Source: Acidobacteriota bacterium (lineage in GTDB: Bacteria > Acidobacteriota > UBA6911 > JACOSC01). Taken from it: DNA of 54,285 nucleotides. Of the stretch, positions 4,138-23,952 are shown piece by piece. The notes beneath the pieces were generated by a model. That model saw only the letters and a program-made list of their open reading frames with translations, did no database searches and was not told the origin of the DNA. Made by a program: the position numbers and the translations under genes. The stretch covers positions 1-54,285 of the forward strand of contig JACOSC010000017.1 in NCBI GenBank assembly GCA_016179055.1. Reading direction: 5' to 3'. Each line of letters opens with the position of its first letter. Position 1 is the stretch's first letter.

Positions 4138-4806
4138 TTAGCCGGTACCTTCCGCTTTTCCCAGCCGCTTGTTCTCATGGGCCGGCTGGACCCTGGCCCT
4201 TGGCTCTTTTCCCTGACCCTGAGCCCGCTCCACATACTGGCGCAGATAGGCCCAGTAATCCTCAGAGACGCTGAGTCCAGCCACCTCTTCCAGCAGCGGA
4301 GCAAAATAGCTCAGACTGGCGATCGTGCCCTGGCCCTGGCCGTTCAACTGCGCGGTGTACTTGCGGGCTATACCCAGCAGCAGCGCCCGCTCCACGTGCG
4401 GTAGTGAGACCCCCCGGCGGTAGAGCGCTCCGGCCAGTTGGCGATCGGCGGCGCCAAAGGCAGAGCGCACGACCGGATACGCTAAAAACCAACGTTGCAC
4501 CTGTTCCACATAAGCGGCCTCTGGGTCGGGCGCTGGGCACCCCCCGGTTTTTACATAGGGCCAGAAGGCGTCCTGGATTTCGATCTCGCCGGTTTGGTGC
4601 TGATTCGCGGCCGGCCGCACCCGGCAAACCTGTTGCCGGCCGAGTTCTTCCAGATAGGTGCTAATGGAGCGGCGCGACTTGCCGAGTGCACGGGCCAGAT
4701 CGGGGTGGCGGAACGAGAGCCGGCCGCTCTGGCGTTGGGCGCTGAGCGCCAGGTAGACGAATAACTTGAAGGCACCGTCCGCTAGCAGTAGCAAAGCTTG
4801 TTGCAT
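4138..4806 (-). CDS. Helix-turn-helix protein of unknown role, third ORF of the IS21 element
   Basis: The 222-residue product has an N-terminal winged-helix/HTH-like stretch at about residues 25-60 (RLSFRHPDLARALGKSRRSI, then TYLEELG), like those of replication-initiator or DnaD-type proteins. A helical middle (VERALLLGIARKY, SYFAPLLEEV) and a basic, charged tail follow. It begins about 35 bases after the original istB stop and ends about 280 bases before the left IS end. It therefore lies wholly inside the element and probably moves with it. Canonical IS21 elements have only istA and istB. The function is unknown; regulation of transposition or target choice is a guess from the DNA-binding motif. 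Confidence 0.65.
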   Translation of the reverse strand: MQQALLLLADGAFKLFVYLALSAQRQSGRLSFRHPDLARALGKSRRSISTYLEELGRQQVCRVRPAANQHQTGEIEIQDAFWPYVKTGGCPAPDPEAAYVEQVQRWFLAYPVVRSAFGAADRQLAGALYRRGVSLPHVERALLLGIARKYTAQLNGQGQGTIASLSYFAPLLEEVAGLSVSEDYWAYLRQYVERAQGQGKEPRARVQPAHENKRLGKAEGTG

Positions 4807-4840
4807 CTCCGGCCCGGCGGCAAACCATCCGCGGCGGTTT

Positions 4841-5618
4841 TTAAGTTCCAGGCTCCTGCGTCACCTCCTTGGCCTCGGCGGTCCGCGCCGCTTTTTCCTT
4901 GCGCATAGAGGGGCCGGCCAGCTCGATGCGATAGGCGTTGTGCACCAAGCGGTCCAGGATGCTGTCGGCGACCGTCCCGACACGTCGGGATCTGCTCGTG
5001 CCAGTGCCCGACCGCCAGTTGGCTGGTCAGAATGGTCGACCGGGTGCGGTAGCGGTCTTCGCAGATCTCCAGAAAGTCGCGGCGCTCGCTCTCACTGAGC
5101 GCCGACATCGCCCAATCATCCACAATCAGCACGTCGGGGCGGGCAATCTGGCGCAGCCGCTCATCCAGACTACCGTCGGCTCTGGCCAGCGCCAACTCGC
5201 GAAACAAACGCGTCGCCCGCGTATAGAGCGCGGTGAACCCGTCGCGCACCGCCCTGTGCGCCAAGGCGCAAGCCAGATAGCTTTTACCCACTCCGCAGGG
5301 GCCGACCATGAGCAGATTATGGTGAGCCGCCACCCACTGCGAGGTGGACAGGCTCTGCAGCAGCGCCCGATCCAGTCCGCGGGGGTGCCGGTAATCGATG
5401 TCTTCCACACAAGCCGCATGCTTCAAGTGGGCATTTTTCAGCCGGCGGGCCAGGGCTTTGTTCTGACGCGAGAGCCATTGCTGGTCCACCAGCAGCGAGA
5501 AGCGTTCTTCAAAGCTGAGTCGAGTCATCCCGGGATCTTCCATCTGGCGGGCTAACGCCTCGGCCATGCCGCTCAGTCGCAGGGCCCGCAGTCTTTCCAA
5601 CGTCGGTTTAATCAGCAT
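4841..5618 (-). pseudogene. istB: IS21 helper ATPase IstB, frameshifted near the C-terminus
   Basis: IstB is the AAA+ ATPase that loads target DNA for the IstA transposase. Seen here are a Walker A box GPCGVGKSYLA, a Walker B VLIVDDWAM, and sensor sequence [14 protein letters not shown]. After HWHEQIPT the frame breaks. One extra base near 4982 moves the true tail ([19 protein letters not shown], then [11 protein letters not shown], ending EVTQEPGT and TAA at 4841-4843) into another frame. The intact gene would give about 258 residues. As it stands, translation runs on to 4782 with unrelated residues. The start overlaps the istA stop by 11 bases (translational coupling). A sequencing error at this single base cannot be excluded. 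Confidence 0.85.
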
Positions 5619-7158
5619 GCGGCGCCTCCTTCCCGGAAGCGAAGTAGTCGGCGCCGCGCAGGTTTTCGTGTAACCGCGGCGGCCGCGCCGCCGCCGGCTC
5701 CGCGTCGGGTTGCGGATCGAGCCCTTTTTTCAAGATCGACTTTACACTCTGGTAGCCGGCATGGTCGAATCGCAGGGCGCGCGCGCAGGCCGCCTCGAGC
5801 CGCTCGGGGCCGAAGCTTTTCCCCAAACGCATCAGGCCTAACCCGGAGCGCAGACTCTGTTCCGTGTGGGCACCGGACTGGAACAGACGCTCGACTACTT
5901 GCGCCGTGGCCAGACCGGCTTTAGCGGCCCAGTCCTGCAGCCGCGCCGGTGTCCACTCCAGATAACGCTGGTGCGCCGGCGGCCGATGCGCCGCTAGCGT
6001 GGTGGCCCCGCCCGGCTCTGCGCCGCGGGCATGAGCCGCTATCCGCTCACCCCGGTGGAATACCTCCACCGGGGTGGTCGTGTAACGGACTTCGACCTTA
6101 CGCCCCACCAGCCGGTAAGGCACACTGTAGTAGTGACGGTCCAACTCGACGTGGTAGTCGTGTCCCACCGCGGCCCACTTCCATTCGGCAAAAGCATAGC
6201 GGGCGCTGGGGAGCGGTCGCAGCGCCCGCCGCTCCAGCTGCTCAAACAGCTCGGCCCGGCTGCCCGGTCGTTTGCGAAACGGACGTTGGTTGAGTCTCTC
6301 TAGCTGTTCCCCGATGGCTTGATTGAACTCCGCCAGGCTGAAGAAGGTGCGCTGGCGCAGCGCCGCCAGAATCCAGCGCTCCACTACCAGAACGCCGGTT
6401 TCCACTTTGGCCTTATCACGGGGCTTGCGCGGCCGCGCCGGGATGACGGCGATCCCGTAATGTACCGCCATTTCCTGATAAGTTGGATTGATGTCGGGCT
6501 CGTAGCGACAGGCGCGCTGCACGCCGGCGCACAGGTTATCGGGAACCAGCATGGCCGGGCCTCCACCAAAATACTCCAGCGCGTGGATGTGCGAGGCGAT
6601 CCAGGAGGGCAGATCCTGTTTCAGCGACGCTTCGGCGAACGTGTAGTTGCTGGCTCCCCACACGGCGACGAAGATCGACGCCGCGGTCGTCTCGCCGGTA
6701 TTGGGATTAACCATGGGGACGGTCTGGCCGGCATAATCAACGAACAGGTTCTCTCCCGCCCGATGCGTCTGCCGCAGCACCAAGTCTAGCTGCTGAGTCC
6801 AACGCCGATATCGCTCGCAGAACTGACTGTACTGGTAACCGTCCGGGTGGTCTTGATTATACTCTTGCCAGAGCTGCTGCCGGGTGACGTGTTTGAAACG
6901 ACGCTGTTGCTCGTGGATCGCCGCAAAGTCCGGCGGCGATTTCTGTTCCGGTGACGTTTTGGAGGCGACCGGAAACAGCTGCGCCTCGAGATCGGCATCG
7001 GTGGTTTCTTCTGGCAAAGGCCAGCCGATGCCGGCTTGCCGAGCCCGCTGCAGGTACTCGGCCACCGCGCACCGCGAGATCGAACAACTGCGAGCGACCT
7101 GTCGCTCGGAAAGTTGGTGCTGATACTTCAGTCGCAGGACTTCTTTGATTTTACGCAT
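5608..7158 (-). CDS. istA: IS21-family transposase IstA
   Basis: The DDE transposase of the element has 516 residues from the chosen start. The N-terminal HTH is LSERQVARSCSISRCAVAEYL. The RNase-H-like core shows the first Asp in LFVDYAGQ, the second in LVPDNLCAGV and the Glu in KAKVETGV. The C-terminal beta-barrel domain follows (DYHVELDRHYYSVPYRLVGR). I chose ATG at 7158 because AGGAGA lies about 7 bases upstream; the frame is open further upstream to 7200. The catalytic residues and length look complete, so IstA may be intact although its partner istB is frameshifted. Confidence 0.9.
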   Translation of the reverse strand: MRKIKEVLRLKYQHQLSERQVARSCSISRCAVAEYLQRARQAGIGWPLPEETTDADLEAQLFPVASKTSPEQKSPPDFAAIHEQQRRFKHVTRQQLWQEYNQDHPDGYQYSQFCERYRRWTQQLDLVLRQTHRAGENLFVDYAGQTVPMVNPNTGETTAASIFVAVWGASNYTFAEASLKQDLPSWIASHIHALEYFGGGPAMLVPDNLCAGVQRACRYEPDINPTYQEMAVHYGIAVIPARPRKPRDKAKVETGVLVVERWILAALRQRTFFSLAEFNQAIGEQLERLNQRPFRKRPGSRAELFEQLERRALRPLPSARYAFAEWKWAAVGHDYHVELDRHYYSVPYRLVGRKVEVRYTTTPVEVFHRGERIAAHARGAEPGGATTLAAHRPPAHQRYLEWTPARLQDWAAKAGLATAQVVERLFQSGAHTEQSLRSGLGLMRLGKSFGPERLEAACARALRFDHAGYQSVKSILKKGLDPQPDAEPAAARPPRLHENLRGADYFASGKEAPHAD

Positions 7159-7289
7159 AGACGTTCTCCTATTGGGCACGCTTTTTCTCCTCCTTAACAT
7201 TCGATTGGGAGGAGAAATCGTGCCAAAGAATGTCCAGCGTCGCTACCTATATCCAGGGGTTTACGGAGATGGCCCCGTCATTCCGGAGC

Positions 7290-7410: not shown

Positions 7411-7496
7411 AGCTAAAGCCGAACCATCGCAGCCAGTGGACGGCTAAAGCCGCCGTTGAGGCACATCGTTAGCCCGCACTCAGGAGAAATCACGCG

Positions 7497-9109: not shown

Positions 9110-9976
9110 ATGCTAAGCGCCTTGACTATAGATTTGGAAGATTACTATAATGCATCGGTCTTTGACTCTATTTATCAGCGGCATCATTGGCCAAACCTGG
9201 AAAGTAGAGTTGAAGCCAGCACAGAGACCGTCTTGGAACTTCTCGCCCACCACCACATTAAGGCTACTTTTTTTGTTCTCGGGTGGGTCGCCGAACGCCA
9301 CCAGAATTTGGTGAAGGCCGTTTGTAAAGCCGGTCATGAAATAGGCTCGCACGGATTTCATCATGAGCTGACTTATTCCATGACCAGAGATCATTATCGT
9401 CAGGATGTCCGGCGATCCAAGCAGCTCTTGGAAGATTTAACCGGGAGTGAAGTTGTGGGCTACCGAGCGCCCAGCTATACCATTACCACGCAATCGTTAT
9501 GGGCTTTGGATATTTTGGTAGAAGAGTCGTACCAATATGATTCCAGCATATTTCCTATCCATCATGATCGTTACGGGATTCCAGGAGCCGAGCGATTCCC
9601 CTACGTTCGTTCCACCGCAGCCGGCAAGATTCTAGAATTTCCTCCCTCCACCGTACGCCTGTTGCGACGAAATCTTCCCGTCGCCGGGGGCGCTTATCTT
9701 CGAATATTACCCTACGCTTATATACGGTGGGGCTTACGCCAAATAACTACCATTGAGCGGAAGCCCGCAATCGTTTATTTTCATCCATGGGAGCTCGATG
9801 GCGATCAGCCGCGCGTAACCATGGGGCTTTTCTCAAGATTCCGCCATTACACTAATTTAACGAAGATGCGATCAAAATTGGAGCACTTATTCGCAGATTT
9901 CGAGTTTGGCCCGGTACGCGCGGTTGCTCAGAGTTTACGTCTAAGTGGAGCGGCGCAATTTGATTATGGACGTTAA
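9110..9976 (+). CDS. XrtA-system polysaccharide deacetylase (TIGR03006/DUF3473 type)
   Basis: This 288-residue NodB-fold deacetylase removes N-acetyl groups from nascent or exported polysaccharide. Visible motifs are TIDLEDYY near the N-terminus (metal and base aspartates), GSHGFHHELTYS (metal-binding histidines), GYRAPSYTIT, and YFHPWELD near residue 225, all typical of the exosortase-associated subfamily. Length fits the family. No signal peptide is evident. It heads the EPS cluster and overlaps the next gene by 11 bases, so the two are probably translationally coupled. The family assignment rests on motif recognition. Confidence 0.88.
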   Translation: MLSALTIDLEDYYNASVFDSIYQRHHWPNLESRVEASTETVLELLAHHHIKATFFVLGWVAERHQNLVKAVCKAGHEIGSHGFHHELTYSMTRDHYRQDVRRSKQLLEDLTGSEVVGYRAPSYTITTQSLWALDILVEESYQYDSSIFPIHHDRYGIPGAERFPYVRSTAAGKILEFPPSTVRLLRRNLPVAGGAYLRILPYAYIRWGLRQITTIERKPAIVYFHPWELDGDQPRVTMGLFSRFRHYTNLTKMRSKLEHLFADFEFGPVRAVAQSLRLSGAAQFDYGR

Positions 9977-20702: not shown

Positions 20703-21932
20703 ATGAAAGTGTTACATGTACTGGATCATACGGTTCCCTACTTTAGTGGGTACAGCTTCCGCACGAAATACATATTGGAAACGCAGAAGCGTTTTGGCCT
20801 CATTCCATTGGCCGTTACGTCGCCGAAGCACGAGAAAATGGACGCGCTGCTCGAAGAGATTCAAGGTATTCCGCATTATCGGACCCGTATGCCCGAGGGT
20901 TTCCTGGTTAGGAGTATCCGTAAGACCCCCTTCTTAAAAGAAAAAATACTGATGAAGGCCCTTCGGCAGAGGGTATTTGAGATCGCCCGTGACGAACGTG
21001 TCGACCTGATCCATGCGCACTCCCCGATCTTAAACGGGATCCCGGCGCTTAAAGTGGCGCGGCGTCTGCATCTGCCGGTGATTTATGAGGTGAGAGCTTT
21101 TTGGGAAGATGCCGCCGTCGATCATGGCACGCTGCGAGAGCATTCGTTGAAATATGGCCTGATCCAGCGCATGGAAACGGATCTGATCAAGAAAGTGGAT
21201 CTGGTCATAACCATATGCCGCGGTTTGCGTGATGACCTGATTGCCCGCGGAATCTCGGCGGAAAAAATAGCAATCGTAACGAATGGTGTAGAGACGTCGC
21301 GCTTCCGGCCGCCCGTCCGCAACTCGGCCTTGGCCACGCGCCTCGGCCTCGACGGCAAAGTAACGTTAGGATTTCTCGGCTCATTTTATCGCTACGAGGG
21401 GCTGGACTTGTTGGTGGAGGCCTTCCGCGCCTTAATCACTCCTTTTCCCCACGCGCGCTTGCTGCTGGTGGGCGATGGTGAAGGAGGAGAGGAATTGCGC
21501 GGCGCCGTTATGCGTGACGGCCTCGAAGGTAAAGTACTCTTCACCGGCAATGTTCCACATGACGAAGTTCAAGATTATTATTCGGTAATGGATGTGGCCG
21601 TGTACCCACGCAAGAAGATGCGCTTGACCGAAACGGTTACGCCTCTGAAAACGTTGGAGGCTATGTCCATGGAACGACCGGTGATTTGCAGCGACCTCGG
21701 CGGCTTTCGCGAAATAGTACGCGATGGCGTCACGGGACTATTGTTTCGCGCCGGGGACGTCGGAGACTTGGTGGCGCGCTGTCGCGCCGTCATTGCAGAT
21801 CCGGGGCTCCGGGAGAATTTGGCCAAAGCCGCGCGCATCGACATGCAGACCTCATGGGATTGGCAGGAAGTTATTCGCCGCCAACTGAGCCTCTACGAGT
21901 CGTTGGTCGAGCATTATCGGTCTCCGGTGTAA
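20703..21932 (+). CDS. Glycosyltransferase, exosortase-A associated (TIGR04063 type)
   Basis: A GT4-family enzyme of 409 residues. The opening MKVLHVLDHTVPYFSGYSFR and TKYILETQ with LAVTSPKH is the signature of the XrtA-linked TIGR04063 family. The donor-binding half shows GFLGSFYRYEGLDLLVEA, LLLVGDGEGGEELR and the ETVTPLKTLEAMSMERPVI stretch with the GT4 glutamates. It presumably extends the lipid-linked EPS unit in the cytoplasm. The 128 bases before it contain no gene. After it the cluster is interrupted by a palindromic repeat and an integron cassette. Confidence 0.88.
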   Translation: MKVLHVLDHTVPYFSGYSFRTKYILETQKRFGLIPLAVTSPKHEKMDALLEEIQGIPHYRTRMPEGFLVRSIRKTPFLKEKILMKALRQRVFEIARDERVDLIHAHSPILNGIPALKVARRLHLPVIYEVRAFWEDAAVDHGTLREHSLKYGLIQRMETDLIKKVDLVITICRGLRDDLIARGISAEKIAIVTNGVETSRFRPPVRNSALATRLGLDGKVTLGFLGSFYRYEGLDLLVEAFRALITPFPHARLLLVGDGEGGEELRGAVMRDGLEGKVLFTGNVPHDEVQDYYSVMDVAVYPRKKMRLTETVTPLKTLEAMSMERPVICSDLGGFREIVRDGVTGLLFRAGDVGDLVARCRAVIADPGLRENLAKAARIDMQTSWDWQEVIRRQLSLYESLVEHYRSPV

Positions 21933-22022
21933 ATCGAGGGCGGATTCAATTGGAGCAGTTCAGCCGCCCCGGCATTAGAGCTGTCAGCCAAAACGGTACC
22001 CCGTCGCTACCGTTATAGCGAA

Positions 22023-22095
22023 ACAGAACCGGGAGCGGTAGCGACCGGGTGCGCCGCGGCCACGGCCACCTGCCCGCTACCGCAGGGGGTTCTGT
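22023..22095. repeat. Palindromic repeat next to the integron cassette
   Basis: ACAGAACC (22023-22030) pairs with GGTTCTGT (22088-22095), and GAGCGGTAGCG pairs inside with CGCTACCGC. A partial third arm GTCGCTACCG lies just upstream near 22003. It resembles a REP-type structured element. It ends 13 bases before the cassette junction and may have served as the folded target for cassette insertion (speculative). Confidence 0.5.
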
Positions 22096-22108
22096 TATTC
22101 ATTCGTCG

Positions 22109-22780
22109 TTAGACGGCGAAAGAGGAGCTACAGTGCGCGAATGGACGTGTTCGTGGAACGGTATCCCGATCGTTGTGCGGAGCTGGACGCGATGGTTAAG
22201 GACCGGCGAGGAACTGCTCGTCGGGGGCCTCGATGTAGACCGGAACGAATCGGGCCTCTTGAGCCGGATGTCTGCGCATCTTGCCGCGCCGATCTCGGTT
22301 GGCGGGCGGCGCCATAACGTCGAAGCCATTCTTGCGCAAGGCCAAGGCACCGTTCGGACGTGCTGCAAGATCCACGTTGATGGACAGGTAGTTGGTGGGG
22401 ATATCGCAGCGAAACTGCGTGCGCCAGAGGTCGCAACATGGGAGAAGGTGCACGAAGCGGGGATGCTGCGATATGTTTTCGGTAGTGGGTTGCTTCGCTA
22501 CGGACTCCCGTATGCGGTCATGGCAGCAGCTATCAGTGCGCCTGCCGCCAAGAATCGAAGCGTATGGAGTATTGTTATCCAATGGACGATCGCTGGCGCG
22601 ATGTTCGGACTTGCCATGACGTACTTCACATGGCGCAGCTCGGAATCGGCGTTCAATTCTCGGCAAGAGAAGCTTAGAGGTGAGCCGAAATTCGCCGCCT
22701 AACAAGCGGTTGGGGCGGCCCGGCGACAGCTAGTGCGATGTTCTGGCGGGCATTCCGTCCGTCGGTCGCTCAACCGCAGG
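22109..22780 (+). mobile_element. Solitary integron gene cassette
   Basis: The left junction is G|TTAGAC at 22108-22114. The right end is an attC whose R'' box is GCCTAAC at 22697-22703 and whose crossover is G|TTATAC at 22780-22786. The cassette's own R' half (TTAGAC) now sits at the left and is complementary in 6 of 7 positions to R'', whereas the right half (TTATAC) fits less well and is presumably target DNA. This is the arrangement produced when a circular cassette integrates at a GTT. One ORF on the same strand fills the cassette. No integrase or second cassette lies next to it. Confidence 0.7.
22133..22702 (+). CDS. Integron-cassette-borne membrane protein of unknown function
   Basis: I chose GTG at 22133 because GAGGAG lies about 6 bases upstream and the start is 25 bases inside the cassette; the product has 189 residues. 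The N-terminal half is beta-rich (REWTCSWNGIPIVVRSWTRW, LLVGGLDVD, CCKIHVDGQVVGGD) and resembles a soluble domain often seen in cassette-encoded hypothetical proteins. Two hydrophobic segments follow at about residues 122-140 and 145-165 (GLPYAVMAAAISAPA and IVIQWTIAGAMFGLAMTYF). The stop codon TAA lies within the attC R'' box. It is unrelated to its EPS neighbours. No function can be named. Confidence 0.7.
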   Translation: MREWTCSWNGIPIVVRSWTRWLRTGEELLVGGLDVDRNESGLLSRMSAHLAAPISVGGRRHNVEAILAQGQGTVRTCCKIHVDGQVVGGDIAAKLRAPEVATWEKVHEAGMLRYVFGSGLLRYGLPYAVMAAAISAPAAKNRSVWSIVIQWTIAGAMFGLAMTYFTWRSSESAFNSRQEKLRGEPKFAA

Positions 22781-22786
22781 TTATAC
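22697..22786 (+). repeat. Integron attC site of the solitary cassette
   Basis: The 90-bp imperfect palindrome has R'' GCCTAAC, then AGCGGTTG pairing with CAACCGC at 22771-22777, inner GGCGAC pairing with GTCGGTCGC, and R' GTTATAC. An unpaired A lies beside each stem (CTAAC-A-AGCGG and CCGC-A-GGTTA), the sort of extrahelical base attC sites use for strand choice. Confidence 0.7.
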
Positions 22787-22857
22787 ACCAAAAGGGACAT
22801 GAACAACTCTTATGAAAATGCGGAGTTAATAATTCTCCTCCACTCGACAGGACTCCT

Positions 22858-23952
22858 ATGGTAGTGCGAGTGAAATATTGGCTGGCCTTCTTGCTGAGGA
22901 AATCCGGTATTTTGTTCCTGGCGCGGCGACGGCCTTTTGGAGGTGTGACTATTCTGTGCTATCACCGGGTTTTTAATGATCCTCGCTCGATGCGTGATTA
23001 TTGTTTTCCCGGTATGGCCATCTCCCGCAAGATGTTTGACGCGCAAATGGCTTGTTTGGCTAAGTATTATCACGTGGTTTGCCTGTCGCATGCCGTGGAG
23101 TGCCTTAAGAGCGGCCGATCTCTCCCTGTCGGAGCAGTGGTCATTACTTTTGATGATGGGTACATGGATAACTATCTTTATGCCTATCCAGTTTTGCAAA
23201 AGTATGAGCTGCCGGCAACTTTTTTCTTGGTTTCCGAGTTTATGGGGGGGAAGTCGCTGTTGTGGTTTGATCGGATCGCTCGCCTGTTAGATTGCGCGGA
23301 AGCCGGCCCGGCGCTGCCGGCACTCTTTCGGACGCACTTGCCGGCGGCACTGAGCGAACGCGCGTCAGCCCTCATGGCGGCTCACGCGGCCAGCCGGCCA
23401 CAGAAGATTAGCGCCGTGGTTGGTTTGCTAAAAGGGGCGCCGGCGGCGGCTGTGGCCGGCTTGGTTGAAGCTCTGGCGAAACAATTCCCGGCGGCTGCGG
23501 AAAGCGCCGGCGCCGATGGCGGCATGTCCTGGGAAATGCTTCGCGAGATGACGCGCAATGGCATGGATGTCGGCTCGCATACGCAAACGCACACGATCCT
23601 GACCGGGCTGCCGGCGGACCGCGTTGAACATGAGATAGGCGAATCGAAGCGTCAACTCGAGCAACAGTTGTCCACTACGGTGCGCTGGTTTTGTTATCCT
23701 AATGGCAATTTTGATGACCGTATATGGAAGAACTTAGCCCGGCATGGTTTTTGGGCCGCTTGCGCCTTGCGCTACGGGTCCAACAAAAGTGCTAATGATT
23801 TAACGGCGCTTAGACGAATAAATATCAATGAAGCGTTTTCGGCGGATCTCTTCGGGGACTTTTCGGAAAACGTGTTCATGGCCGAATTGGCTGGTTTGTT
23901 TGATTGGGTGCTCCTACGACGTTTTCGTCGGGGCTCGCCGTCATACAAATAA
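22858..23952 (+). CDS. Polysaccharide deacetylase (NodB domain)
   Basis: A 364-residue protein with metal-binding motifs VITFDDGYMDNYLYAYPVL (TFDDG) and VGSHTQTHTIL (SHxxxH), plus RWFCYPNGNFDD near the C-terminus. The residue order fits the NodB catalytic domain of carbohydrate esterase family 4. A helical Ala-rich insert of about 110 residues (roughly positions 140-250) separates the two metal motifs, longer than usual. The N-terminal GGVTILCYHRV is a classic start of membrane-associated deacetylases. It probably deacetylates a sugar of this EPS. It is distinct from the XrtA-type deacetylase at the cluster start. Confidence 0.87.
   Translation: MVVRVKYWLAFLLRKSGILFLARRRPFGGVTILCYHRVFNDPRSMRDYCFPGMAISRKMFDAQMACLAKYYHVVCLSHAVECLKSGRSLPVGAVVITFDDGYMDNYLYAYPVLQKYELPATFFLVSEFMGGKSLLWFDRIARLLDCAEAGPALPALFRTHLPAALSERASALMAAHAASRPQKISAVVGLLKGAPAAAVAGLVEALAKQFPAAAESAGADGGMSWEMLREMTRNGMDVGSHTQTHTILTGLPADRVEHEIGESKRQLEQQLSTTVRWFCYPNGNFDDRIWKNLARHGFWAACALRYGSNKSANDLTALRRININEAFSADLFGDFSENVFMAELAGLFDWVLLRRFRRGSPSYK

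Follow-up and report, generated by a model that had tools for sequence, protein, structure and literature searches.

A gene cassette between two exopolysaccharide genes

The window analysed here is the whole contig C332 of 54,285 nt, and all positions refer to its forward strand. Between the genes for a group 1 glycosyltransferase and a polysaccharide deacetylase, in surroundings of co-oriented sugar-nucleotide, glycosyltransferase and Wzy-type genes, an integrated gene cassette was identified (Table 1). The cassette lies between the two halves of a palindromic intergenic repeat, which is present in many copies in the same genome. Judging by one conserved protein, AroC, whose nearest matches, at 60-62%, belong to group 4 Acidobacteria/Pyrinomonadaceae, the host is probably acidobacterial.

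Table 1. Features of the window, with the evidence for each assignment.
Feature	Position	Strand	Basis
Second, weaker lone attC-like site	7418-7474	+	Covariance model, 26.2 bits
XrtA-system deacetylase	9110-9976		
Glycosyltransferase group 1, upstream of the cassette	20703-21932	+	Pfam PF13692/PF00534
Left half of the high-copy palindromic intergenic repeat, ending in CATTCGTCG	22017-22108	+	78-91% identity to about 40 scored copies in the own genome; hairpin; profile
Integrated gene cassette, 672 bp (TTAGAC to the G of R', including attC)	22109-22780	+	Direct sequence reading; missing in uninterrupted repeat copies
RBS-like AGAGGAG ahead of the GTG start	22121-22127	+	Sequence
Cassette ORF, 189 aa, orphan, probable C-terminal two-helix hydrophobic domain	22133-22702	+	Translation; weak homologues; low-confidence AlphaFold model
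attC site	22697-22786	+	Covariance model, 30.8 bits; bottom-strand fold with R and L stems, z -2.3
attC box R'', GCCTAAC	22697-22703	+	Sequence
attC box L'', GCGGTTG	22706-22712	+	Sequence
attC box L', CAACCGC	22771-22777	+	Sequence
attC box R', GTTATAC	22780-22786	+	Sequence
Right half of the interrupted palindromic repeat, TTATACACCAAAAGGGACATGAACAACTC	22781-22809	+	Gapless join to 22108; profile; genome-wide count
Polysaccharide deacetylase, downstream of the cassette	22858-23952	+	Pfam PF01522

The anatomy of the cassette can be read directly from the sequence. The left junction is formed by GTTAGAC at 22108-22114, and a single ORF follows after a short 5' leader, with its GTG start at 22133, 24 bp from the left end, and its TAA stop at 22700-22702, inside the R'' box of the attC site. 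This position of the stop had been part of the original prediction, as had the left junction and the attC boxes, and each of these elements was found where it had been placed. It had further been claimed that TTAGAC on the left fits R'' better than TTATAC on the right. On the complement strand R'' reads GTTAGGC, with which GTTAGAC agrees in 6/7 positions and GTTATAC in 5/7, in line with this claim. The element was originally given as 22108-22786; it is real, but since the crossover is placed between G and T, the cassette proper had to be trimmed to 22109-22780. Its GC content is 59.7%, compared to 54.5-54.9% in the two neighbouring genes.

For the encoded protein of 189 amino acids, no match was obtained in Pfam or NCBIfam, and no relative was detected in the named genomes by a pattern search or in plasmids. 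A weak similarity (27-28%) links residues 87-171 to small stand-alone proteins, 85-95 residues long, which share the pattern WEKxRxxG...GVLxxG... and contain two hydrophobic stretches. No attC site was identified near the genes of these small two-helix proteins. The AlphaFold model of the cassette protein is poor (mean pLDDT 46) apart from the C-terminal helix; helices are predicted for residues 103-135 and 142-183. The protein probably contains a C-terminal two-helix membrane domain, with which the weak homologues and this low-confidence model are consistent. As a guess, the cargo might be a membrane-anchored accessory protein. A sigma-70-like promoter was not seen in the region 21900-22900, and an Rfam search gave nothing relevant. 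The cassette gene is plausibly read from the upstream exopolysaccharide transcript.

The attC site and the integrases of the genome

The attC site was recognized directly by a covariance model built from eight attC sites located elsewhere in the own genome, with the site in the window left out. It represents the top match of the window (E 9.5e-6), spanning all 60 model positions. At E <= 0.01, the same model identified 72 sites in the own genome, corresponding to about 70 attC sites, and zero sites in 12 of 30 related genomes, so that its false-positive rate is low. The inverted homology of R''-L'' to L'-R' and an extrahelical base in the L stem are both present, with some of the pairs decayed. 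The bottom strand, on which the site carries mismatches, folds into R and L stems of moderate stability (z -1.7 to -2.3). Thus, covariance scan and fold both bear out the attC site proposed originally. Two resident attC sites fold more stably, with z values of -3.7 and -4.1; the weaker fold of the site in the window is due to the loss of several stem pairs, and because of this loss re-excision of the cassette may be inefficient.

Four near-full-length integron integrases, all above the cut-off of TIGR02249, were identified in the genome. They are encoded on contigs C57, C9, C184 and C315, and several fragments exist besides. The R, HxxR and Y motifs are all present in three of the four; the integrase on C184 has an altered C-terminus and is devoid of the Y motif. 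On contig C332, no match to TIGR02249 or PF00589 was obtained, and an intI gene with an attI site does not adjoin the cassette. The attC site in the window is therefore a lone site on a contig without intI, with the nearest other attC match at least 15 kb away. The claim that neither an integrase nor a second cassette is present consequently holds for the lack of intI on the contig, but not for the genome with its four integrases, and it has to be qualified by the weaker lone attC-like site in the window. The latter adjoins the terminal repeats of an IS21-type element (IstA/IstB, 4782-7200) and is followed by a short truncated ORF.

On C9, C184 and C315 (loci L026, L027, L028 and L143), the attC arrays follow intI on its 3' side and share its orientation, which is the opposite of the usual divergent layout. 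In addition, the own genome carries about 26 isolated attC sites away from any integrase, for example at 772-858 of contig C255 (L029), where the site is accompanied by an ORF of 78 amino acids. Some of these may represent further insertions outside of integrons, and others are located near contig ends. In another genome of the same class (G019), a long array of about 30 attC sites in 20 kb was identified on a contig of that genome, also numbered C57.

The interrupted palindromic repeat

The left flank of the cassette is the left part of the palindromic repeat, the hairpin arms of which are formed by 22022-22051 and 22067-22096. A profile of the 24-nt repeat end scored 29.5 at 22108, with a runner-up of 17.3 within the window. 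For the right block, the profile scored 26.1 at 22793, the runner-up within the window reaching 15.7, and its sequence GGGNCATGAAYAACTC was counted 33 times in the genome but not once in a reversed control. When 22108 is joined to 22781, the alignment with 29 repeat copies contains no gap at the junction. Among 30 repeat copies drawn by the right block, the end of the left part was found immediately upstream in about 28 by eye and in 15 by a strict pattern. In the family, the two halves are spaced by 16-18 nt. In the window as it stands they are 672 bp apart, no intact arrangement of the repeat being present there, and after removal of 22109-22780 the spacing is 17 nt.

Other repeat copies run on beyond the crossover roughly as TGGCGCCCCAAAAGGGGCATGAACAACTCC. 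At the crossover position, GTG is found in most copies. The copy of the window has GTT there, as do a few further ones, L065 among them. By homology to the repeat, the left boundary of the cassette is resolved to 1-2 bases. The first six bases of the right flank, TTATAC, fit the repeat consensus TGGYGC poorly, and the right boundary is therefore set by homology only to about 6 bp. Since GTTA is present at both cassette junctions, the exact crossover within GTTA was taken from integron biology and not from the alignment. The junctions are precise and lie at a G^T core, and their uninterrupted target can be identified from the paralogous empty sites.

The interruption itself is a direct observation, and comparison of the repeat sequences confirmed that the cassette interrupts one repeat copy at G^TTA, with the uninterrupted copies of the genome serving as paralogous empty site. 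For an orthologous locus, 149 genomes, none of them of the same order, were searched with 4.3 kb; the matches were limited to fragments of the repeat and short coding stretches, without synteny of the exopolysaccharide genes. Within the repeat family (loci L056, L063-L090 and L231-L260), two kinds of left part are combined with one common right part. The repeat core is also present in other genomes of the same phylum.

Origin of the insertion and comparison with known systems

Since the attC site is matched by the model and the flanks are the two halves of one repeat, the locus is very probably the product of an off-platform insertion, in which a trans-acting integrase placed the cassette at G^TTA in the repeat between the exopolysaccharide genes. 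Capture of a cassette outside of an integron had been proposed originally, and it gained support from the attC match, from the split repeat being contiguous elsewhere and from the integrases in the genome. A circular integron cassette with its own attC site would have been inserted by an integron integrase acting from elsewhere in the genome, presumably one of those identified here, using the folded bottom strand of attC. The target would have been a single G^TTA within one copy of the high-copy repeat, which before the insertion would have read ...CATTCGTCG followed directly by TTATACACC... in the gap between the two genes. On the left, TTAGAC of the cassette would have been joined to the G of the target, and on the right, the terminal G of attC to TTATAC of the target.

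A former local integron or array, of which this cassette is the last remnant after loss of the integrase and the other cassettes, is unlikely. In its favour are the many attC clusters of the genome and another lone attC 15 kb upstream, but both junctions fall within one repeat copy with nothing else in between, and whereas such a remnant would be expected to leave traces of attI or intI, no intI match lies on the contig. A possible variant, in which several cassettes were inserted at the repeat site and later reduced to one, would look identical. It is very unlikely that repeat and cassette were brought together along a different route, with attC being incidental, for instance through homologous recombination or through a transposition that duplicated 4 bp of the target. 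The GTTA identity on both sides of the segment would fit such a route; against it, the 672 bp contain neither a transposase nor terminal inverted repeats, and the core-site boundaries of attC coincide with the breakpoints of the repeat. Least probable of all, to the point of being hardly credible, is that 22108-22786 represents ancestral intergenic DNA with a chance likeness to attC. The near lack of homologues of the cassette protein would be compatible with this, but it is contradicted by the split repeat, and the independent match to the attC model and the difference in composition also stand against it.

It was further considered whether cassettes in this lineage land preferentially in the dispersed copies of the repeat family, an extruded hairpin of which might, for example, expose a nearby G^TT to the integrase. 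This is improbable. The flanks of the fetched attC loci were scanned for repeat blocks and none was found adjoining, so that there is no sign of repeat-specific targeting. If it were true, repeats and integrons would jointly scatter cassettes through operons.

For the off-platform insertion favoured here, the value of the locus lies in its target. Because this is a repeat, dozens of copies in the genome still show the sequence as it was before insertion, and the left crossover can be placed with nearly single-base precision. Insertion outside of integrons has been proposed as one source of isolated attC sites and of clusters without an integrase, but its natural cases have usually been inferred in the absence of an empty site. 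With its four integrases and its isolated attC sites, about 26 in number, the genome would make it possible to measure how often such insertions occur naturally and which targets they prefer.

Off-platform insertion at attG sites and elements with a single attC have already been described, and the locus presented here is a further, unusually well-documented natural case. Cassette integration at attG, that is, non-classical genomic sites, was reported by Loot et al. (2024, Nat Microbiol 9:228), as cited in PMC12444791 and PMC12901181. As far as it is described in these citing papers, it shares with the present locus a single cassette with attC at the right end, which is joined to ordinary genomic DNA at a G^T core, without attI. 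It differs in that the event described here is a natural one in a probably acidobacterial genome, with a high-copy repeat as target and thus with empty sites in the same genome. A single attC lacking an integron-integrase is termed SALIN (PMC12690207); this likewise comprises one attC with no integrase nearby, but here the insertion origin is documented rather than assumed. CALIN are clusters of attC sites lacking an integron-integrase, and one of the origins proposed for them is that a distant IntI inserted cassettes off target (PMC8618304). With these, the locus has in common that an integrase is present elsewhere in the genome; in contrast to them, it consists of one cassette only and not of a cluster.
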